A stretch of 45,803 nucleotides of DNA, from positions 1-45,803 of the forward strand of contig NZ_JAIQZA010000036.1 in assembly GCF_020164485.1 (NCBI RefSeq), in the 5' to 3' direction. This document shows positions 3,329 to 27,564 of the stretch, one piece after another. How positions within the stretch are numbered: the first letter of the stretch is position 1; each line of letters opens with the position of its first letter. The notes under the pieces were generated by a model that did not search any database, was not told the origin of the DNA, and saw only the letters and a program-made list of their open reading frames with translations. The DNA comes from Salegentibacter tibetensis. GTDB lineage: Bacteria; Bacteroidota; Bacteroidia; Flavobacteriales; Flavobacteriaceae. The translations under genes were made by a program, and so were the position numbers.

Positions 3329-3581
3329 ATTTTATAAATTAAAATTGAAATTATATTTTTTGGTCGGTAATTTTTGAAGTAACCAACAATGGACATATAC
3401 ATAGCTGCTGCCATTTGCAATTTTAGCTCTCCAACTAAATTTGAGGAAAGAGGGAAAACCACTCTTGATTAAATAATGGAATACATTATTGTCTAAAAAT
3501 TCTATAGGTAACATATAAGAATAAAGTTGAAATGGAAAAATGTGCAGGTAGAAAACTACAGTGTTAATTTGAAAAGCCAGA

Positions 3582-3600
3582 TTTAAACGAATGGTTTAAA
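3582..3600 (-). other. small hairpin after the leader ORF
   Basis: TTTAAAC and GTTTAAA form a perfect 7-bp AT-rich stem with a 5-base loop, 14 bases beyond the stop codon of the penta-cysteine leader ORF on the minus strand. No uridine run follows immediately. It could take part in attenuation, but this is inference. Confidence 0.35.
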
Positions 3601-3614
3601 ACAGGGAAAGCTTA

Positions 3615-3716
3615 TTAACAGCAACAACAGCAGAAATCTCTGCTTGCTGAATCCATTGAAGGATAGGTAGAATGCCTGAAAATAATTGCGGGAATAGTGG
3701 CTGTAAGAGTCTTCAT
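3615..3716 (-). CDS. 33-aa leader peptide ending in five cysteines
   Basis: This short ORF starts with ATG and ends in RDFCCCCC directly before TAA. The five cysteines use codons TGC TGT TGT TGC TGT. The start is preceded by an A-rich stretch (ACAAACAAAAGT), typical of Bacteroidota translation initiation. It begins about 35 bases after the SAM-I aptamer and lies between the aptamer and the ATP-grasp/monooxygenase operon, in the same orientation. Poly-cysteine leader ORFs that sense cysteine supply through ribosome stalling are established upstream of sulfur genes in actinobacteria; this looks like an independent equivalent. It has no signal peptide or membrane segment. A ribosomally made precursor whose cysteines are modified by the adjacent enzymes is the alternative. 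Coding status is inferred from position and composition. Confidence 0.6.
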   Translation of the reverse strand: MKTLTATIPAIIFRHSTYPSMDSASRDFCCCCC

Positions 3717-3737
3717 ACTTTTGTTTGTTTTATATTC

Positions 3738-3751
3738 TCCAAAATTTTGGA
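3738..3751. repeat. palindrome between riboswitch and leader ORF
   Basis: TCCAAAATTTTGGA is a perfect 14-bp palindrome that follows the last conserved bases of the SAM-I aptamer. It may be part of the expression platform. Confidence 0.4.
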
Positions 3752-3840
3752 TCAGGAATTAGCACCTTGACTTAGTCTGGTTGCTAGCGCATCATAGAGC
3801 CTGTCTCTCCGCGCTTCTTTATAAATCAATTCACTCTTGA
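3751..3840 (-). promoter_or_regulatory. SAM-I (S-box) riboswitch
   Basis: On the minus strand the region shows the conserved SAM-I core elements in the right order: the GGAGAGA-CAGGCTCTATGA segment, GCTAGCAACC about 10 bases later, and GGTGCTAATTCC at 3755-3766. GCGC/GCGC and GAATT/AATTC pairs can form P2 and the closing stem. SAM-I aptamers bind S-adenosylmethionine and switch off sulfur-metabolism genes when it is plentiful. The aptamer starts about 5 bases after the predicted transcription start and precedes the leader ORF and the ATP-grasp/monooxygenase operon. No classical terminator follows, so control may be translational or act through the leader ORF. Confidence 0.9.
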
Positions 3841-4638: not shown

Positions 4639-4848
4639 TTAACAGCAGCTTTTATTCTCCTGAATAGGAGGACAAGGTATACTTCCAAACGAACAGAATA
4701 CACAACAATCACCATCTTTGGGTTTTAAAACCTCTTTACATTGCTCACATTCATAAAAAAACTGGCAAGCATCTGTTGGCATTTCTTCTTGCTTGGAGTG
4801 GCCGCAATTAGGACAGGTGATTTTTGACTGAGTAAAAAATGAATTCAT
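4639..4848 (-). CDS. small GDCCVxC-domain cysteine-rich protein
   Basis: This 69-aa protein has a CPNC pair (12-15), a CEQC pair (34-37), the signature GDCCVFCSFG (46-55) and a C-terminal CC, 11 cysteines in all. The two CxxC pairs probably make a zinc ribbon. GDCCVxC proteins are known from mercury-resistance clusters of Bacteroidota and other phyla, where their precise role is not established; a thiol-based mercury-binding function is the natural inference. It is the last gene of the minus-strand mercury-type operon, 21 bases after the flavoprotein gene. Confidence 0.85.
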   Translation of the reverse strand: MNSFFTQSKITCPNCGHSKQEEMPTDACQFFYECEQCKEVLKPKDGDCCVFCSFGSIPCPPIQENKSCC

Positions 4849-4869
4849 TTTTTTAATTATTTTAATTAA

Positions 4870-6216
4870 TTATACCATATATACAACATCTGAACTCGAT
4901 GAGGGATAGGTTAGGATCATGGTTTTTAAATCTTTGGAAGTAAATCCGGCTTTTATAGCTAGGGCAAAAAGATTTATTACTTCCTCGGCATGTGGGCCAA
5001 TGAGGTGTGCTCCCAAAATTTTTCCGGTTTCTTTCTCGACGAGTGTCTTATACGCATAGGTTTTCTCGTTGATCCTTTTCGCGGTAAACCAGTGGGAAAT
5101 ACGATCCTTGTTCATCTTAAAGTTTAGACCTTTTTTAGTGGCTTCTTCTTCAGAAAATCCTACCGAAGCCATTGTGGGCAGTGTAAAAACCACAGTGGGA
5201 ATGGCGGTATAATCTGGTTTTTTAGTGTTTCCTTTTAATATATTGGAGGCTACAATATGTCCTTCCATAACTGCAACCGGCGTAAGAGGAATACCATCTG
5301 TATCTGCTGCATCCCCGGCAGCATAGACATTTGGATTGGTGGTACTTTGTAAATATTCATTCACTTCAACTCCTTTTTTACCAAAGGCGACATTGGCTTT
5401 TTGCAGGTCCATATCAAAAATGCTAGGAGGCCTTCCGGCAGAATTAATCACCTGCGCAGCCTCCCATGTTTTTTCTCCACTTTCACCTTTTCCGGTTACG
5501 TAAAAAGCCTCATTCACCTCTTCAATTGCCGTAACGTTGGTATTCAGAATTAATTGTATGTCTAACTTCCTGGTAGCTTCAGTTAATTGATCTACTATAA
5601 AAGGATCAAAATTCTCCAGTGGCCTTTTCCCCCTGTGAATTATGGTCACTTTACTGCCAAAACGGGCAGCCATATGTGCAAACTCAAAAGCGATGTACCC
5701 ACCGCCAATAAACAGCAAAGAGGATGGCAGGGATTTGAAATTGAGAAAATCTGTACTGCTAATAGCATACTCCTCACCCGGGATATCCAGCTTTCTCGGC
5801 TTTGCACCCGTCGCTATTAGGAACTTTCCGGCTTCTATAATTTCATTTCCTATCTGCAATTGAGTTTCAGAAATAAATTTTACTGATTCATGAAAGGTAT
5901 CAATTTCGTTTTTTTGGTAACCTTTTTCAATTTTAGGCGGCATAGCATCAACAAAATCCTGTTTGAATTTCATTGCTTCCTGCCAGTAAATAGCTGGTAC
6001 TTCAGAAATTTGCTTCTTGTATAAATTATCAGCCAGATGTTTTGCTTCAGTAGGGCCGAGCATGATCTTTTTTGGGTCACATCCACGAAGGGCACAGGTA
6101 CCACCATAGGGTAATTCATCCGTTATTCCTGCCCTAAGTCCTTTAGAAGCACATTTATTGGCAACATTCATTCCTGCCATTCCTGAACCTATTACAAATA
6201 GATCATACTTCTTCAT
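4870..6216 (-). CDS. FAD/NAD(P)-dependent disulfide oxidoreductase, MerA-like
   Basis: This 448-aa protein belongs to the pyridine nucleotide-disulfide reductase family (dihydrolipoamide dehydrogenase, glutathione and mercuric reductase). It has the FAD loop GSGMAG near residue 10, the redox pair in GGTCALRGCDPKK (C41 and C46), the NAD(P) loop FIGGGYIAFEFA near 168, the second FAD motif YAAGDAAD near 297, and a C-terminal dimerisation domain with GPHAEE. It lacks both the N-terminal metal-binding domain and the C-terminal vicinal cysteine pair of true MerA; the tail ends YPSSSSDVVYMV. It is therefore MerA-like by context but its mercury reductase activity is uncertain. It starts one base after the MerTP stop. 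Confidence 0.85.
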   Translation of the reverse strand: MKKYDLFVIGSGMAGMNVANKCASKGLRAGITDELPYGGTCALRGCDPKKIMLGPTEAKHLADNLYKKQISEVPAIYWQEAMKFKQDFVDAMPPKIEKGYQKNEIDTFHESVKFISETQLQIGNEIIEAGKFLIATGAKPRKLDIPGEEYAISSTDFLNFKSLPSSLLFIGGGYIAFEFAHMAARFGSKVTIIHRGKRPLENFDPFIVDQLTEATRKLDIQLILNTNVTAIEEVNEAFYVTGKGESGEKTWEAAQVINSAGRPPSIFDMDLQKANVAFGKKGVEVNEYLQSTTNPNVYAAGDAADTDGIPLTPVAVMEGHIVASNILKGNTKKPDYTAIPTVVFTLPTMASVGFSEEEATKKGLNFKMNKDRISHWFTAKRINEKTYAYKTLVEKETGKILGAHLIGPHAEEVINLFALAIKAGFTSKDLKTMILTYPSSSSDVVYMV

Positions 6217-6217
6217 C

Positions 6218-6841
6218 TCACTTTTTTTTAGATAATTTATCTACTACCTTATAACCGGTTCTGCTTATGGCTGTAATAATTGCAGCCTTATCTACTTTTG
6301 TTTTGTCATACTCAACTACCGTATTGGCATTTTCATAGCTCGCCTTGACTGATAAAACACCCCCAAGTTTGTTGACTTCATTTTCTACCGGTGCTTCACA
6401 TCCTGCGCAGGTCATTCCTTCTACAACAAATATCTCCTTAACAATATTTGATTGGGAGACATAGACTATTTCCTTTTTAGGTTGGCTGTAAAACATCTCG
6501 GAGTAATATGGAAAAGCCAGCATGATCCCTGCAAATAATGTTACAACCAGTAAAAACTTCTTCGACTGCAAAAAAGATGGTTTTTCATCTTCTGCACATC
6601 CACAATCACTTTCAGTTTCTTTTCTATATTTCAACTTTTGATACCAGGCTAGGCTAAGAACTAAAACCGTGAGAGCAATTAAATACGGCCGGAAAGGTTC
6701 CATCCAGGAAAAGGTAGTCACCATGCCACTCGTACCCGCGATTACAGTAAGAACCGGGGCAATACAACATAAAGAAGCCGCTATAGCTGCTACTACTCCG
6801 CCAAAAGCAGCTTTATTAGATTTATTTTGGGATGTATCCAT
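6218..6841 (-). CDS. merTP: mercuric transporter MerTP fusion
   Basis: The N-terminal half is MerT-like: membrane helices with the vicinal pair SLCCIAPV (C25, C26), a second helix near 52-68 and a cytoplasmic-loop pair CGC (C80, C82), then a third helix near 95-112. The C-terminal part is a MerP-like heavy-metal-associated domain with GMTCAGCEAPV (C145, C148). In separate-gene operons MerP is periplasmic and hands Hg(II) to MerT; here both are one 207-aa chain, a form known from Bacteroidota. It follows the ArsR gene by one base and precedes the MerA-like gene, so these are one operon. Confidence 0.88.
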   Translation of the reverse strand: MDTSQNKSNKAAFGGVVAAIAASLCCIAPVLTVIAGTSGMVTTFSWMEPFRPYLIALTVLVLSLAWYQKLKYRKETESDCGCAEDEKPSFLQSKKFLLVVTLFAGIMLAFPYYSEMFYSQPKKEIVYVSQSNIVKEIFVVEGMTCAGCEAPVENEVNKLGGVLSVKASYENANTVVEYDKTKVDKAAIITAISRTGYKVVDKLSKKK

Positions 6842-6842
6842 T

Positions 6843-7214
6843 TTAAGCAGATTTTTTTAATGATTCAATTGAAGTGAATATTGTATTCAAAATCTGAGTT
6901 TCAGATTTCACCAGCGAATAATACAAAGTTTGCCCCTCCCTTCTGGAGGCAATAAAGCCTGCGTCCTTAATTTTCCGGAGATGTTGTGAAATCGCCGGCA
7001 TACTCATTTCCAAAATGTCTGCTATATCACAGGGACATAATTCATTCTCCATATTTAAAAGGAAGAGAATCTTTAAACGCACATCATTACCGGCAATAGA
7101 CAGGAGTTTTGTCATTTGCTGGAAACCGTTGTCCAAATTTTGAATTGTTGTTTGACAATTTAAAAGCTGTGTATGGTTAGCTTCAGCGCGCGTACAGGTT
7201 ATTTCGAGTTTCAT
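6843..7214 (-). CDS. ArsR-family metal-sensing repressor
   Basis: The 123-aa protein is a winged-helix ArsR/SmtB regulator. The DNA-recognition region carries ELCPCDIADIL (about 58-68) with C60 and C62, the alpha-3 metal-sensing position seen in ArsR/CadC sensors, followed by the recognition helix MSMPAISQHLRKIKDAG and the wing REGQTLYYSL. Additional cysteines at C7 and C20 lie in the N-terminal extension and may complete a thiolate site. It is the first gene of the mercury-type operon, so autoregulation is expected. An AT-rich imperfect dyad lies just upstream (about 7235-7265) but is not clear enough to call as the operator. Confidence 0.88.
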   Translation of the reverse strand: MKLEITCTRAEANHTQLLNCQTTIQNLDNGFQQMTKLLSIAGNDVRLKILFLLNMENELCPCDIADILEMSMPAISQHLRKIKDAGFIASRREGQTLYYSLVKSETQILNTIFTSIESLKKSA

Positions 7215-8010: not shown

Positions 8011-11000
8011 ATGTTAAATAAAATCATTGATTTTTCAATCAATAACAAATTCATAATAGGCCTGTTCACGCTAGTTCTCATTGGTACGGGTCTTTGGAGT
8101 ATGAGCGAGGTTCCGGTTGATGCCCAACCGGACATTACCAATAATCAGGTTCAGGTAATTACCCAGGCCCCGAACCTCAGTACCGTGGATATTGAACAAT
8201 TTGTTACCTATCCTGTTGAAGTCGCGATGAGCAATTTGCCCGGGGTGCTGGAAATCCGCTCGGTTTCCCGGTTTGGCCTTTCCGTTGTGACCGTGGTCTT
8301 CGAGGACGGACAGGGGACCTACCTTCCAAGGCAACTGGTTTCAGAAAAACTGAATGAAGTGCAGGATGAAATTCCTGAAGGTTTTGGGGAACCTTCTATC
8401 GGGCCTATTTCAACAGGTTTAGGGGAAATCTATCAATATACCTTAGAGGTAGAAGATGAATATAAAGACGAATATACCCCTACAGAACTTCGAACCATCC
8501 AAGACTGGATCGTGCGGCGGCAAATGGCCATGGTGCCCGGCGTAGTGGAAGTAAACGGAGTAGGTGGCAGCATCAAACAGTTTGAAGTTGCTGTAGATCC
8601 TGATGAGCTACGTGCCATAGGGGTTTCAATTGCCGATATTTTCACCGCACTGGAAAACAACAACCAAAATACCGGAGGTGCCTATATAGAAAGAAACCAC
8701 CAGGCAAATTTTATCCGGGGCGAAGGTCTGGCCAGGAGTGTGGAAGACCTGGAAAATATTGTGGTAAAAAATGCTGACGGTATTCCTATTACTATAGAAG
8801 ATGTTGCCACTGTAAAGATAGGTAGTGCAGTGCGGTATGGTGCGTTGACCAAAAACGGCGAGGGCGAAACGGTGGGCGGAATGGTCATGATGCTTAAAGG
8901 GGCCAATTCCAATGAAGTAATTGAGAATGTAAAAGACCGGATCGTCCAAATCCAAAAATCACTTCCTGAAGGGGTTTCCATTAAACCTTTCCTGGACAGG
9001 AGCGAACTTATTGCCAAAACCACAGGGACTATCACTGAAAACCTGATGTTAGGAGGGCTTATTGTTATTTTTGTCCTGGTAGTGCTGTTGGGAAATTGGA
9101 GGGGCGGTTTGATTGTGGCCTCCACCATTCCTTTGTCGTTGTTGTTTGCTTTTATTCTAATGAACGTTTTTGGTGTGTGGGCAAATTTAATGAGCCTGGG
9201 CGCCATTGACTTTGGGATTATTGTGGATGGTGCTGTGATTATTGTGGAAAGCACGGTCTTTATGATTCATCAAAAAGTGCTGAAAAATCAGCAAATAACT
9301 CGGAAAAAAATGGATTCCATTGCTTCCTCATCTGCCAAGAAAATGATGAATTCCGCTTTTTTTGGGCAATTTATCATTCTCATCGTTTTCCTTCCCATCC
9401 TCGCCCTGGAAGGTGTGGAAGGCAAAATGTTCAAGCCAATGGCCTTAACCTTCATTTTTGCCATGATTGGTGCTATGATTTTATGCCTTACCTATGTGCC
9501 AATGGTTTCTGCCCTGTTTTTAAAGGCACCTAAAAAAATAAAAGAATCCTGGGGGGACAAATTTGTGTTCTGGCTGGAAAACAAATATGAACCGCTGCTG
9601 AAAAAATCTTTGGGCAAAGCAAAAATAGTGGTTGGTTTGGCAATCACCCTTTTTGCATTGGCCGTTTTCCTGTTTATCCGAATGGGTGGGGAATTTGTGC
9701 CCCAACTGGACGAAGGGGATATTGCCTTTCATATCATCCTGAAACCCGGAAGTTCTTTATCTGAAGGAATTGAGACATCCACAAAAATAGAGAACCTGTT
9801 GCTGGAGGAATTTCCGGAGATAGAGCAAGTAGTAAGCCGGTTTGGGGTATCTGATGTTCCTACAGATCCAATGCCGATGGACATTGGCGATAGCTTTATC
9901 ATTCTTAAACCAAAAAGTGAATGGGTTTCCGCAGAGACCAAAGATGAACTCATAGCAAAAATAAAAGAAACCATAAGTATAATCCCCGGGGTGAGTTATG
10001 AATTTACCCAACCCGTTGAAATGCGCTTCAACGAACTGATCTCGGGGGTACGGGAAGATATCGCCGTAAAACTATATGGAGATGATCTTGAAGTATTGGC
10101 ACGTAAAGCCCGGGAAATGGGCAATATCATTTCGACAGTAGAAGGTGTTGCCGATATGAAGGTGGAAGCAACTACTGGCCTGCCACAAATTACCGTTGAT
10201 TACAACAGGAACAAACTTGCTCAATATGGGCTAAACGTAAATGATTTAAACACCTTGGTTCAATCAGCTTTTGCGGGTGGGAAAGCAGGGGTGATTTTTC
10301 AAGGGGAAAGGCGGTTTGATTTAATAGTTCGTTTGGATGAAGAACATCGTACCAATATAGAAAATCTAAGAAATCTGTATGTCAATTTGCCCAATGGATC
10401 CCAAATCCCGCTTCGAGAAGTGGCAAATATAAGCTACGAACCGGGACCAATGCAGATAAGTAGGGAGAACACCAATCGTAGGACCTATGTGGGGATTAAT
10501 ATCAGGGAGCGCGATGTAAAATCTGTGGTGGAGGATATCCAATCCAAGCTTGACGCACAACTTGATTTACCCCCGGGATACTACATTAGGTATGGTGGTG
10601 CCTTTGAGAATTTTGAAAGGGCAAATGAACGACTTCAAATTGTGGTGCCCATAGCGCTGTTGCTTATTTTTATCTTAATCTATTTTGCCTTAAAATCCTT
10701 TAAACAAACCACCATGATCTATGTCGCCATTCCTATGGCGGCCATTGGCGGCATTTACGCATTATGGCTTCGGGATATGCCATTTAGTATTTCGGCAGGA
10801 GTCGGTTTTATTGTACTGTTTGGTGTAGCGGTTCTTAACGGACTAGTTTTGATTAGTGGCCTCAATGAGTTGAAGGAGGAAGGGGTAACAAATCTAACGG
10901 AACGAATAAGCCTGGGAACACGGCGAAGGATCCGCCCCATTTTACTAACTGCTTTGACCGATGTGCTTGGGTTTCTGCCTATGGCCGTTTCCTCTTCGTC

Positions 11001-12357
11001 GGGGGCTGAAGTACAGCGACCACTGGCCACGGTGGTAATTGGAGGAATGATTACTTCTACCCTACTTACGCTCATCGTTTTGCCAATTTTGTATAAATGG
11101 GTAGAAGAACGTTCTTCCAAAATCCATATGAATAAAAGGATTGTTTCAGCCTCTGTGGTGGTTGGGTTATTGTTGCTGATGCCCGGTAATACCCAGGCAC
11201 AGGAAATTAACGAACCGCTTCCTAAAGTCAGTCAGAACCGGGCTGTGGAAATAGCATTGGAATATTATCCGCTTCTGAAAAACAGGAGATTGGAAATAGA
11301 ACAACAGCAGGCACGAAGAAAATCGGCCTGGGACCTGGGCACGACCAAAATTTTTACCGGTGGCGAAGAAATTGATGACCAACGCGGGGTTTATACCACC
11401 GTGGGTATTCAGCAGCAGGGAATTGATATTTTCGGAATTTTACCAAAGTTACGTTTACAAAAACGGCGGATCGTACTGGCCGAAAAGTCCCTTGAACTGT
11501 CTGAACTTGAAGTCATCCAGGAAGTAAAACGGGCCTGGGCCGAAGCTTTTGCCGCAAAGCGAAAATACCATGCTTTTACTGGCCTTGATTCCATTTACCG
11601 CGGTTTTGAGCGTGCGGTAGCCATACGCTACGAGGTAGAAGCTATTTCCAGGTTACAGTCCCTCACTGCCCAAAATCAGGTAAATGAGATAAATATCCAG
11701 AGGCAGCAGGCCAACAGCGATTATTTGATCGCACTGGAAAGGCTGAATTTATGGCTGGGGGATGATGAATTCTTTTCGGTGCCTGGGGAATTGGACACAG
11801 AAGTTATTGCTGAAAAAATCCTGTTGCAACAAAACCTTCAGGAACACCCAATAATGGAAATTGCCCGGCAGCAGGTGGCGATTTCAGAAGTAGAGCACGA
11901 AGCGGTAAGATCCAATTTCCTTCCTAAATTAAACCTGCAATACGGATTTCAGGAAGTAAATGGCAACAGTGGATTTTACAGCTATCAGGCTGGAATTTCC
12001 ATTCCTTTTCTTTCCGGGGAAACCTATGGAAGGGCACAAGCGGCTAGAATAGAAACAGAAATAGCACGACAAACCGCTACTTTCAGGGAAGACCAGTTGC
12101 AGGCAGAATTTGCACAAGCCCTTCAAAATTACCAAAAGTGGAAAACCTCCTGGGAATATTACGAAGAAGAGGCATTGCCTTTGTCGGCTGAACAGCAAAA
12201 AGGCGCTTTGCTCGCTTTTAATGAAGGCGCTATAGAATATGTGGCTTTTATCCAGATCCTGGATGATGTGGTCCAAGTGGAACTCAGTGCTCTTGAAGCC
12301 CTTGAAGAATACCTGCAAGCCCTTGCCCAACTACAATTTTACCTTAACAATAAATAA
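8011..12357 (+). CDS. czcA: CzcA-type heavy-metal RND pump fused to a TolC/CzcC-type channel
   Basis: Residues 1 to about 1035 are a complete heavy-metal RND transporter. Transmembrane segment 4 carries DFGIIVDGAVIIVES (D400, D406, E413), the proton-relay pattern of divalent-cation pumps (Zn/Co/Cd/Ni) rather than the Cu/Ag pattern. From M1040 the chain reads as an ordinary signal peptide (MNKRIVSASVVVGLLLLMPG, then TQAQE) and continues to 1448 as an outer-membrane efflux protein with two coiled-coil TolC repeats. The pump and channel are thus one polypeptide, where most bacteria have two. Because the RND C-terminus is cytoplasmic, the former signal sequence would cross the inner membrane as a 13th helix or be cleaved. 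It is followed after 8 bases by the adaptor gene, giving a full envelope-spanning exporter. Confidence 0.92.
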   Translation: MLNKIIDFSINNKFIIGLFTLVLIGTGLWSMSEVPVDAQPDITNNQVQVITQAPNLSTVDIEQFVTYPVEVAMSNLPGVLEIRSVSRFGLSVVTVVFEDGQGTYLPRQLVSEKLNEVQDEIPEGFGEPSIGPISTGLGEIYQYTLEVEDEYKDEYTPTELRTIQDWIVRRQMAMVPGVVEVNGVGGSIKQFEVAVDPDELRAIGVSIADIFTALENNNQNTGGAYIERNHQANFIRGEGLARSVEDLENIVVKNADGIPITIEDVATVKIGSAVRYGALTKNGEGETVGGMVMMLKGANSNEVIENVKDRIVQIQKSLPEGVSIKPFLDRSELIAKTTGTITENLMLGGLIVIFVLVVLLGNWRGGLIVASTIPLSLLFAFILMNVFGVWANLMSLGAIDFGIIVDGAVIIVESTVFMIHQKVLKNQQITRKKMDSIASSSAKKMMNSAFFGQFIILIVFLPILALEGVEGKMFKPMALTFIFAMIGAMILCLTYVPMVSALFLKAPKKIKESWGDKFVFWLENKYEPLLKKSLGKAKIVVGLAITLFALAVFLFIRMGGEFVPQLDEGDIAFHIILKPGSSLSEGIETSTKIENLLLEEFPEIEQVVSRFGVSDVPTDPMPMDIGDSFIILKPKSEWVSAETKDELIAKIKETISIIPGVSYEFTQPVEMRFNELISGVREDIAVKLYGDDLEVLARKAREMGNIISTVEGVADMKVEATTGLPQITVDYNRNKLAQYGLNVNDLNTLVQSAFAGGKAGVIFQGERRFDLIVRLDEEHRTNIENLRNLYVNLPNGSQIPLREVANISYEPGPMQISRENTNRRTYVGINIRERDVKSVVEDIQSKLDAQLDLPPGYYIRYGGAFENFERANERLQIVVPIALLLIFILIYFALKSFKQTTMIYVAIPMAAIGGIYALWLRDMPFSISAGVGFIVLFGVAVLNGLVLISGLNELKEEGVTNLTERISLGTRRRIRPILLTALTDVLGFLPMAVSSSSGAEVQRPLATVVIGGMITSTLLTLIVLPILYKWVEERSSKIHMNKRIVSASVVVGLLLLMPGNTQAQEINEPLPKVSQNRAVEIALEYYPLLKNRRLEIEQQQARRKSAWDLGTTKIFTGGEEIDDQRGVYTTVGIQQQGIDIFGILPKLRLQKRRIVLAEKSLELSELEVIQEVKRAWAEAFAAKRKYHAFTGLDSIYRGFERAVAIRYEVEAISRLQSLTAQNQVNEINIQRQQANSDYLIALERLNLWLGDDEFFSVPGELDTEVIAEKILLQQNLQEHPIMEIARQQVAISEVEHEAVRSNFLPKLNLQYGFQEVNGNSGFYSYQAGISIPFLSGETYGRAQAARIETEIARQTATFREDQLQAEFAQALQNYQKWKTSWEYYEEEALPLSAEQQKGALLAFNEGAIEYVAFIQILDDVVQVELSALEALEEYLQALAQLQFYLNNK

Positions 12358-27343: not shown

Positions 27344-27564
27344 AATATAAAGTTTTAATATGTACCTACTCTTTGAAGGATTTTCGGCTTCTCCTACTTT
27401 CTGCGCAAAAAGATTTTTAATGTTTCTTTTATGGTGTAAACTTTCCAGTTTTTTTACTGAAAATTGAAAGTAGTATAAGCTTCCGGCTACTTTATCATTT
27501 ACAATAGTAAATTTCATCAAATAACCTCAAAGAAAATGGTTGCTAAAGCCGTAAAACTATTCTG

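Follow-up and report, generated by a model that had tools for sequence, protein, structure and literature searches.

In the genome of Salegentibacter tibetensis (Flavobacteriaceae), contig NZ_JAIQZA010000036.1, a stretch of 45,803 nucleotides (nt) analysed at full length and hereafter called the window, carries a short operon for an ATP-grasp ligase and a monooxygenase. The operon is preceded by an S-adenosylmethionine (SAM) riboswitch aptamer and, behind it, a small open reading frame (ORF) that ends in a run of cysteine (Cys) codons; we refer to the aptamer and this Cys leader together as the pair. The first-pass annotation had described a promoter, a SAM-I aptamer, a 33-codon ORF with five final Cys codons and an ATP-grasp/monooxygenase operon without naming the strand, and all of these were found on the minus strand:

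3883-3851, minus strand: Bacteroidota-type promoter, TTTTG (3883-3879), 20 nt, TACATTTG (3858-3851), identified by eye
3827-3727, minus strand: SAM-I riboswitch aptamer, RF00162, 77.2 bits, model positions 1-108 (full length)
3716-3615, minus strand: leader ORF with ATG start, 33 codons plus stop, reading MKTLTATIPAIIFRHSTYPSMDSASRDFCCCCC then TAA
3618-3632, minus strand: five Cys codons, TGC TGT TGT TGC TGT, abutting the TAA stop of the leader ORF
3329-3614, minus strand: 286 nt from leader stop to first gene, sequence read
3328-2345, minus strand: RimK-like ATP-grasp ligase gene (P0001), Pfam RimK above cut-off
2348-1329, minus strand: luciferase-like monooxygenase gene (P0002), near dimethylsulfone and alkanesulfonate monooxygenases

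The aptamer scored well above the RF00162 gathering score of 44.4 and ends 11 nt before the leader start codon. Its helix P1 was missing from the ligand-free minimum-energy fold, as expected of a SAM-dependent helix, and an Rfam search of the window leader returned no second family at gathering score, arguing against a tandem aptamer. The leader ATG (3716) lies 135 nt past the end of the -7 box (3851) and downstream of the aptamer, so its start is not leaderless. The promoter was judged by eye (the sigma-70 scan that was run does not cover the Bacteroidota type), and we take its TTTG sequence to be the -33 box. The same boxes (TTTG, 20 nt, TACATTTG) precede the aptamer in Gillisia, and the -7 box matches the Flavobacterium sigma-A consensus TAnnTTTG as given in the relevant passages of PMC9723704. 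Within the 4.2-megabase genome, TGYTGYTGYTGYTAR (Cys-Cys-Cys-Cys-stop) occurs once, at this leader; the genome's second SAM riboswitch stands before metH and has no Cys-tail ORF. A possible second short ORF ending VHC (3330-3514, minus strand) lies before the ATP-grasp gene and is also present in Gillisia, the end WRAKIANGSSYVYVHC in the window resembling WRGKIARGSSYVTVHC in Gillisia; Salinimicrobium has WKTRIAEGGPGIKVHCCC, in another setting.

A scan of genome contigs for the ATP-grasp protein gave 17 loci, the upstream regions of 15 of which were read; a SAM-I aptamer was followed by an ORF ending CCCCCC in Gillisia, CCCWH in Salinimicrobium nanhaiense and CCCCCCC in Nafulsella. The gene was present in 74/200 genomes of the Hymenobacteraceae (our family f9, which includes Pontibacter pamirensis as judged by an identical locus), in 4/395 genomes of a phylum sample and in 2/99 relatives, the window genome counted. 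A scripted set of 79 ATP-grasp loci, mostly from this one family, had a SAM core directly upstream of the gene in 74, and every one of these 74 carried a Cys-cluster ORF (three or more Cys, of which two or more are adjacent) at narrow spacing. Their longest Cys run was 2 in 10 loci, 3 in 28, 4 in 3, 5 in 6, 6 in 21 and 7 in 6, and the last Cys lay within three codons of the stop in 68/74. Codon usage within the clusters was mixed (TGT 303, TGC 93), and many leaders carried dispersed in-frame Cys codons, such as GCCWPLAGAGCCC, not one tract. The first-pass annotation had staked its proposal on a poly-Cys end being conserved in orthologous leaders; such an end recurred at all 74 SAM-bearing ATP-grasp loci and before other sulfur genes (below).

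Loci outside the 74 were of several kinds. Both aptamer and leader were present in L148 and had been missed by the regular expression, L107 begins close to a contig edge, and L087, on the same contig as L065, had neither element in the 720-900 nt seen. In L122 and L129 a susC-susD pair precedes the ATP-grasp gene and the SAM aptamer stands in front of susC; of the leaders there, L325 retains two adjacent Cys (CC) and L326 has decayed to single Cys. SAM-I aptamers precede susC in L325, L326 and L327, and in the first two of these the operon runs on to susD, the ATP-grasp gene and the monooxygenase gene. These susC-headed operons suggest TonB-dependent uptake of an organosulfur compound. Outside the 79, the Salinimicrobium catena locus (L066/L112) is without the pair, and the ORF upstream of its ATP-grasp gene is, by eye, presumably an Rrf2-type regulator. 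Immediately downstream of this operon is a SAM riboswitch of metH. In a tree of ATP-grasp proteins built by a quick method, the window grouped with Gillisia, S. catena and Salinimicrobium, beside Nafulsella and the Pontibacter group. Since only 2/99 relatives have the gene, the operon was likely transferred with its leader attached.

The Cys cluster after the aptamer is neither a chance occurrence nor unique to the window. We counted ORFs of 15-60 codons that start at most 90 nt from the aptamer core and have CC in their last 12 residues, and compared the counts with dinucleotide shuffles. Such ORFs were found in 72/74 ATP-grasp loci (shuffle mean 3.5), 41/78 other non-metH loci (0.7) and 0/49 metH rows (0.0); CCC occurred in 64, 35 and 0, respectively. 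In the ATP-grasp leaders the runner-up to Cys in this count was Ala, with AA in 12/74. Fisher's test of 41/78 against 0/49 gave p ~8e-12, which is not an independent-sample probability because the loci are related.

To see which other genes lie behind the pair, SAM-I aptamers were searched for in 194 genomes of the order of genome G267, taken to be Cytophagales, of which 147 were positive. The resulting table of 132 rows comprised 30 from this order search, 60 more that were fetched, 31 from Flavobacteriaceae (two of them from the window genome) and 11 others; as 90 of the order-search matches were read and the listings favour high-scoring aptamers, class frequencies are not unbiased. First-gene labels were assigned from motifs, and several unassigned rows were settled by family searches. 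A CC leader was found before metY in 28/39 rows, metX in 2/8, metH in 1/49, metB/Z-like genes in 0/4 and metK in 0/1, as well as in 17/29 rows with an unassigned first gene (four of them ATP-grasp loci) and in 0/2 without a usable core or gene. The sole metH row, L195, has a 12-residue ORF that was discarded by eye as spurious, leaving no accepted metH case. ORFs of L222 and L190 were likewise judged spurious by eye but still count within the 17/29 and 28/39, and the doubtful L274 was kept. L159 and L026 are one S. catena metH locus, so that the 49 metH rows are 48 loci, and L002, L164, L165 and L167 belong to the ATP-grasp set and were excluded from the "other" sets.

Family searches placed the pair before cysH (L255, L266 and L271, with cysD behind it tested in L255), a nitrite/sulfite-reductase-family gene (L252), NhaC-type transporters (L163, L220), susC (L249), metX (L231) and an HPP membrane protein (L241, with L243 and L261 alike by eye). 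In L169 it precedes an O-succinylhomoserine sulfhydrylase gene standing behind an ORF that is ferredoxin-like by eye. Nafulsella has a Cys leader at 4/5 of its SAM riboswitches, the metH riboswitch being without one. Judged by these gene classes, the pair is a mark of sulfur entry, and the step after homocysteine (metH) is without it. The first-pass annotation had looked to other Flavobacteriia for the same ORF after SAM-I aptamers. There the search found nothing further, the pair being present at 1/31 Flavobacteriaceae SAM loci read, that of the window; it succeeded in the order that holds Hymenobacteraceae, which on the genomes sampled is the stronghold of the pair. Among 47 aptamers from other families of the phylum sample (mostly top-scoring) there were two CC matches, one seemingly spurious (L290) and one perhaps real (L305).

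The spacing between aptamer and leader was closely kept. Of the 73 ATP-grasp loci measured, 53 had a P1 of 11 base pairs, and in 56 the helix ended exactly 6 nt ahead of the leader start. Among 46 leader rows, the start codon fell 15-18 nt past the start of the P1 3' motif in 32, and at 17 nt in 20. Across 49 distinct ATP-grasp sequences, the RNA was near-invariant from P1 up to and including the GTG start, and the later codons were variable. Among leaders that begin with GTG, no consensus hairpin was found around the start codon. Terminator-like hairpins at -4.5 kcal/mol followed the aptamer in 28/49 metH rows (8.5 expected) and in 1 of 40 other pairs (2.0 expected). We infer that SAM acts mainly via hiding of the leader start.

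On this comparative evidence, aptamer and leader together form a composite regulatory element that is conserved, and the Cys-codon cluster at or near the end is the leaders' most conserved feature. Aptamer, leader and regulon are established at the level of sequence; we infer that there is gating, which sign it has and what follows stalling. Our preferred reading, to which we assign a probability of roughly 55%, is a composite two-input leader in which the aptamer gates the Cys leader and sulfur assimilation is switched on only when both SAM and cysteine are low. When SAM is plentiful, ligand-bound P1, with its 3' strand a few nt from the leader start, would bar ribosomes and the operon would be off. 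When SAM is scarce, the leader would be translated. If Cys-tRNA were also scarce, the ribosome would stall at the last Cys codons, next to the stop, and shield the RNA just downstream, preventing termination (Rho-dependent or through local structure) and turning the operon on; with cysteine plentiful, it would complete the leader and depart, and the operon would be off. Downstream shielding, as in Rho-dependent attenuation, is preferred because the Cys run ends beside the stop. We would put at even odds the fuller proposal that the aptamer uses the attenuator ORF's start codon as its expression platform, SAM deciding whether the Cys sensor is read, and that this gate runs sulfate reduction, homocysteine synthesis and organosulfur uptake and cleavage in one order while metH has only the aptamer.

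Before making sulfur-uptake enzymes, the cell probably gauges its supplies of methionine and cysteine jointly. Riboswitches and leader ORFs are each textbook elements; if one is stacked on the other so as to gate it, RNA would be merging two signals in a novel manner with no protein involved. Genes above the split between cysteine and methionine would sense both products, and the gene below it SAM alone. Codon-based cysteine sensing would be extended to Bacteroidota, in which ribosomes rarely use Shine-Dalgarno pairing, and the ATP-grasp/monooxygenase operon would be placed in sulfur acquisition.

Several observations weigh against a gate of this kind. Many of the 74 ATP-grasp loci are close relatives. 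Eight metY loci (L183, L186, L196, L221, L232, L254, L265 and L268) have an ORF at the leader's place with no Cys run, where the sensor may have been lost or the leader may read something else, and metX has the pair only in its two rows of eight and in L231. In L231 the leader stop is almost on the metX start. P1 is shorter in the window, where the leader start lies 12 nt from it. A terminator-like site at -4.5 kcal/mol was found near the leader start in 18/74 ATP-grasp loci (5.6 expected), which would fit a SAM-controlled terminator in place of a hidden leader start. Constraint on the peptide is weak outside its Cys codons, with 59, 61 and 87 changes at codon positions 1, 2 and 3 (18 disjoint pairs). 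After the leader stop, intrinsic terminators at -7 kcal/mol were in no clear excess in ATP-grasp loci (53%, compared to 57% in shuffles), and in 41 other loci they were found in 24% compared to 11% in shuffles, with no difference at -9 or -11 kcal/mol. Pairing of the Cys codons over the whole downstream stretch was slight (mean z -0.24, n=36; -0.27, n=74, standard error of the mean 0.10). Against the gene start, mean z was 0.03 (27 metY), -0.04 (11 unassigned), -0.32 (63 ATP-grasp) and -1.25 (2 metX); L231, which has no gap, was excluded from both pairing analyses. Downstream pairing of the Cys codons, as in translational attenuation, is thus at most slightly favoured. With no clear terminator excess and little Cys-codon pairing, the step from stalling to antitermination is unsupported in detail. 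The first-pass annotation had spoken of a "two-signal sulfur attenuator": the anatomy and the regulon support two signals well, but the attenuator is not borne out by these results.

Other measures of the same stretch were mixed. In the window, a scan of 3329-3614 found no terminator-like site between leader and gene, and the fold of 3640-3515 had a z of -1.11. Alignment folding after the leader stop gave no stable consensus structure across groups, though one subgroup of six close relatives had a consensus fold of -35 kcal/mol. Just past the stop there was a folding excess (mean z -1.7 over 74 loci, mononucleotide shuffles) that fell to -0.4 at 180 nt. C-over-G skew, a mark of Rho sites, was mild (0.20 and 0.10, compared to 0.09 in metH leaders).

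The alternative that survives best, though we think it unlikely, is that aptamer and leader are two independent checkpoints in series, each acting on the operon with no gating, so that SAM or Cys alone still represses. The metH aptamers of the same group have their own terminator-like sites, as do the 18 ATP-grasp pairs, which favours separate action of the aptamer; that only 1 of the 40 other pairs has such a site after the aptamer, and that P1 lies within a few nt of the leader start at narrow spacing, speak for gating instead. Cys leaders without any aptamer outside Bacteroidota also favour independence. Ten ATP-grasp loci from Acidobacteriota, Gemmatimonadota and one other bacterium (L067-L076) had no SAM aptamer, and several had a Cys-rich leader of different design. 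A 199-genome sample gave 17 loci, read for their leaders, with a clear Cys leader in six (L200, L202, L203, L211, L212, L214), weaker ones in L207 and L208, and none seen in the remainder. Of 23 scripted non-Bacteroidota rows, 11 (10 distinct loci; L069 and L203 are one) had a Cys leader with the last Cys 8-17 codons before the stop and an intrinsic terminator 25-36 nt after it; the leader matched a terminator arm, as an antiterminator would, at p < 0.05 in 1/11. Two unlike designs placing Cys codons before one operon argue that cysteine is a true input, and these leaders are a separate hint that the ATP-grasp operon answers to cysteine, which counts for the preferred two-input reading as well.

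Decidedly less likely is a translational-coupling relay, in which the gene is translated only after complete translation of the leader and the operon is on if sulfur is available but SAM is short: low SAM would open the leader and cysteine shortage would cut output, as in the B12 riboswitch-uPPE2 relay of Mycobacterium tuberculosis. A riboswitch-uORF relay is established for uPPE2 in the portions of PMC11260477 that concern it, and the nearly touching leader stop and metX start make coupling the better fit in L231. Elsewhere, however, leader stop and gene start are mostly separated by 40 to 400 nt, a distance too great for simple reinitiation, and it would be odd for an operon of sulfur assimilation to lose output at low cysteine.

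That the Cys-tailed peptide is itself the product, for example a metal- or sulfur-binding one, and no sensor, we regard as very improbable. Cys runs of 2 to 7 could bind metal and a mercury-resistance cluster is near in the window, but the peptides diverge outside the Cys codons, match no NCBIfam family and keep a narrow spacing to the SAM aptamer that precedes them, with sulfur genes of various kinds downstream. Used as a protein query for relatives, the leader peptide gave a good match only to the window itself, the remainder being noise, and this route was abandoned. Hardest of all to credit is that the ORF is untranslated and its TGY tract a repeat or other feature of the RNA: such a tract is repetitive RNA whether read or not, but the low shuffle yields, the mixed TGT and TGC codons and the dispersed in-frame Cys codons given above all speak against it.

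Returning to the preferred reading of a gated Cys leader, the genes that it would control overlap in the window (3328-2345 and 2348-1329). P0001 matched the RimK family TIGR00768 at 1.8e-22, under the curated cut-off. P0002 matched SfnG (TIGR04021) at 6.2e-69, also under the curated cut-off, and among PDB entries matched 3rao (2e-114), the alkanesulfonate monooxygenase 8vw6 (1.8e-96) and the dimethylsulfone monooxygenase 8t0u (1.5e-42).

Just upstream (4639-7214, minus strand) lies a mercury-resistance-like cluster with an ArsR-type regulator, a GDCCVxC protein, a MerTP fusion transporter (272.7 bits, cut-off 180) and a MerA/glutathione-reductase-type flavoprotein that remained under cut-offs. 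An ORF at 8011-12357 (plus strand) encodes a CusA/CzcA heavy-metal RND pump (1227 bits) and extends ~400 residues past the pump domain, in what looks like a fused outer-membrane factor. A DUF805b RNA motif (39.2 bits) is at 27363-27396 (minus strand).

We found no description of a SAM riboswitch with a cysteine leader in full-text literature, nor anything joining SAM riboswitch, Bacteroidetes and leader peptide, or riboswitch and Hymenobacter; this is moderate evidence, supplements and most subscription papers being beyond reach. Clues of leader-peptide attenuation before amino-acid operons are given for Flavobacterium (PMC9723704) and leader-like short ORFs for Bacteroides (PMC7366714), in passages that name neither cysteine leaders nor SAM. 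Compared to the SAM-I (S box, RF00162) riboswitches, the pair has the same aptamer sequence and fold and the same placement before sulfur and methionine genes, but in 40 other pairs the aptamer has no terminator of its own, and the start codon of the Cys leader occupies the place of the expression platform. It shares with trp-type attenuators a leader ORF with a run of end-product codons, here with sulfur genes downstream, but the intrinsic terminator/antiterminator that follows the codons in those systems was not clearly more frequent than in shuffles for the Bacteroidota leaders. Canestrari et al. 2020 reportedly described polycysteine leaderless short ORFs of mycobacteria. The mycobacterial and actinobacterial leaders also are short ORFs with a Cys codon run near the stop before cysteine genes, but the mycobacterial ORFs are leaderless, whereas those of the window type follow a SAM aptamer, belong to another phylum and precede methionine genes too. 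For the Actinobacteria cys leaders, the relevant part of PMC1262725 gives no conserved terminator hairpin and suggests Rho. The uORFC-8-2 before cysS in Rhodobacterales likewise is a leader ORF with tandem Cys codons but, in the passages of PMC8632094 that treat it, has two such codons, an intrinsic terminator and no aptamer. The B12 riboswitch of uPPE2 adjoins a translated short ORF controlling a gene, as here; within the portions of PMC11260477 cited above, that ORF has no amino-acid codon run and works as a coupling relay via an AUGA overlap, with no second sensor. Such a stop-start overlap is absent from the pairs described here, with a 286-nt gap in the window and only L231 coming close. 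Two sensors in one leader are also found in tandem regulators, including mgtCBR, which is said to have tandem attenuators in one leader (PMC3641672), and tandem riboswitches, reportedly acting as logic gates. In those systems the two sensors are of one kind, whereas the pair would join an aptamer to a codon-based leader.
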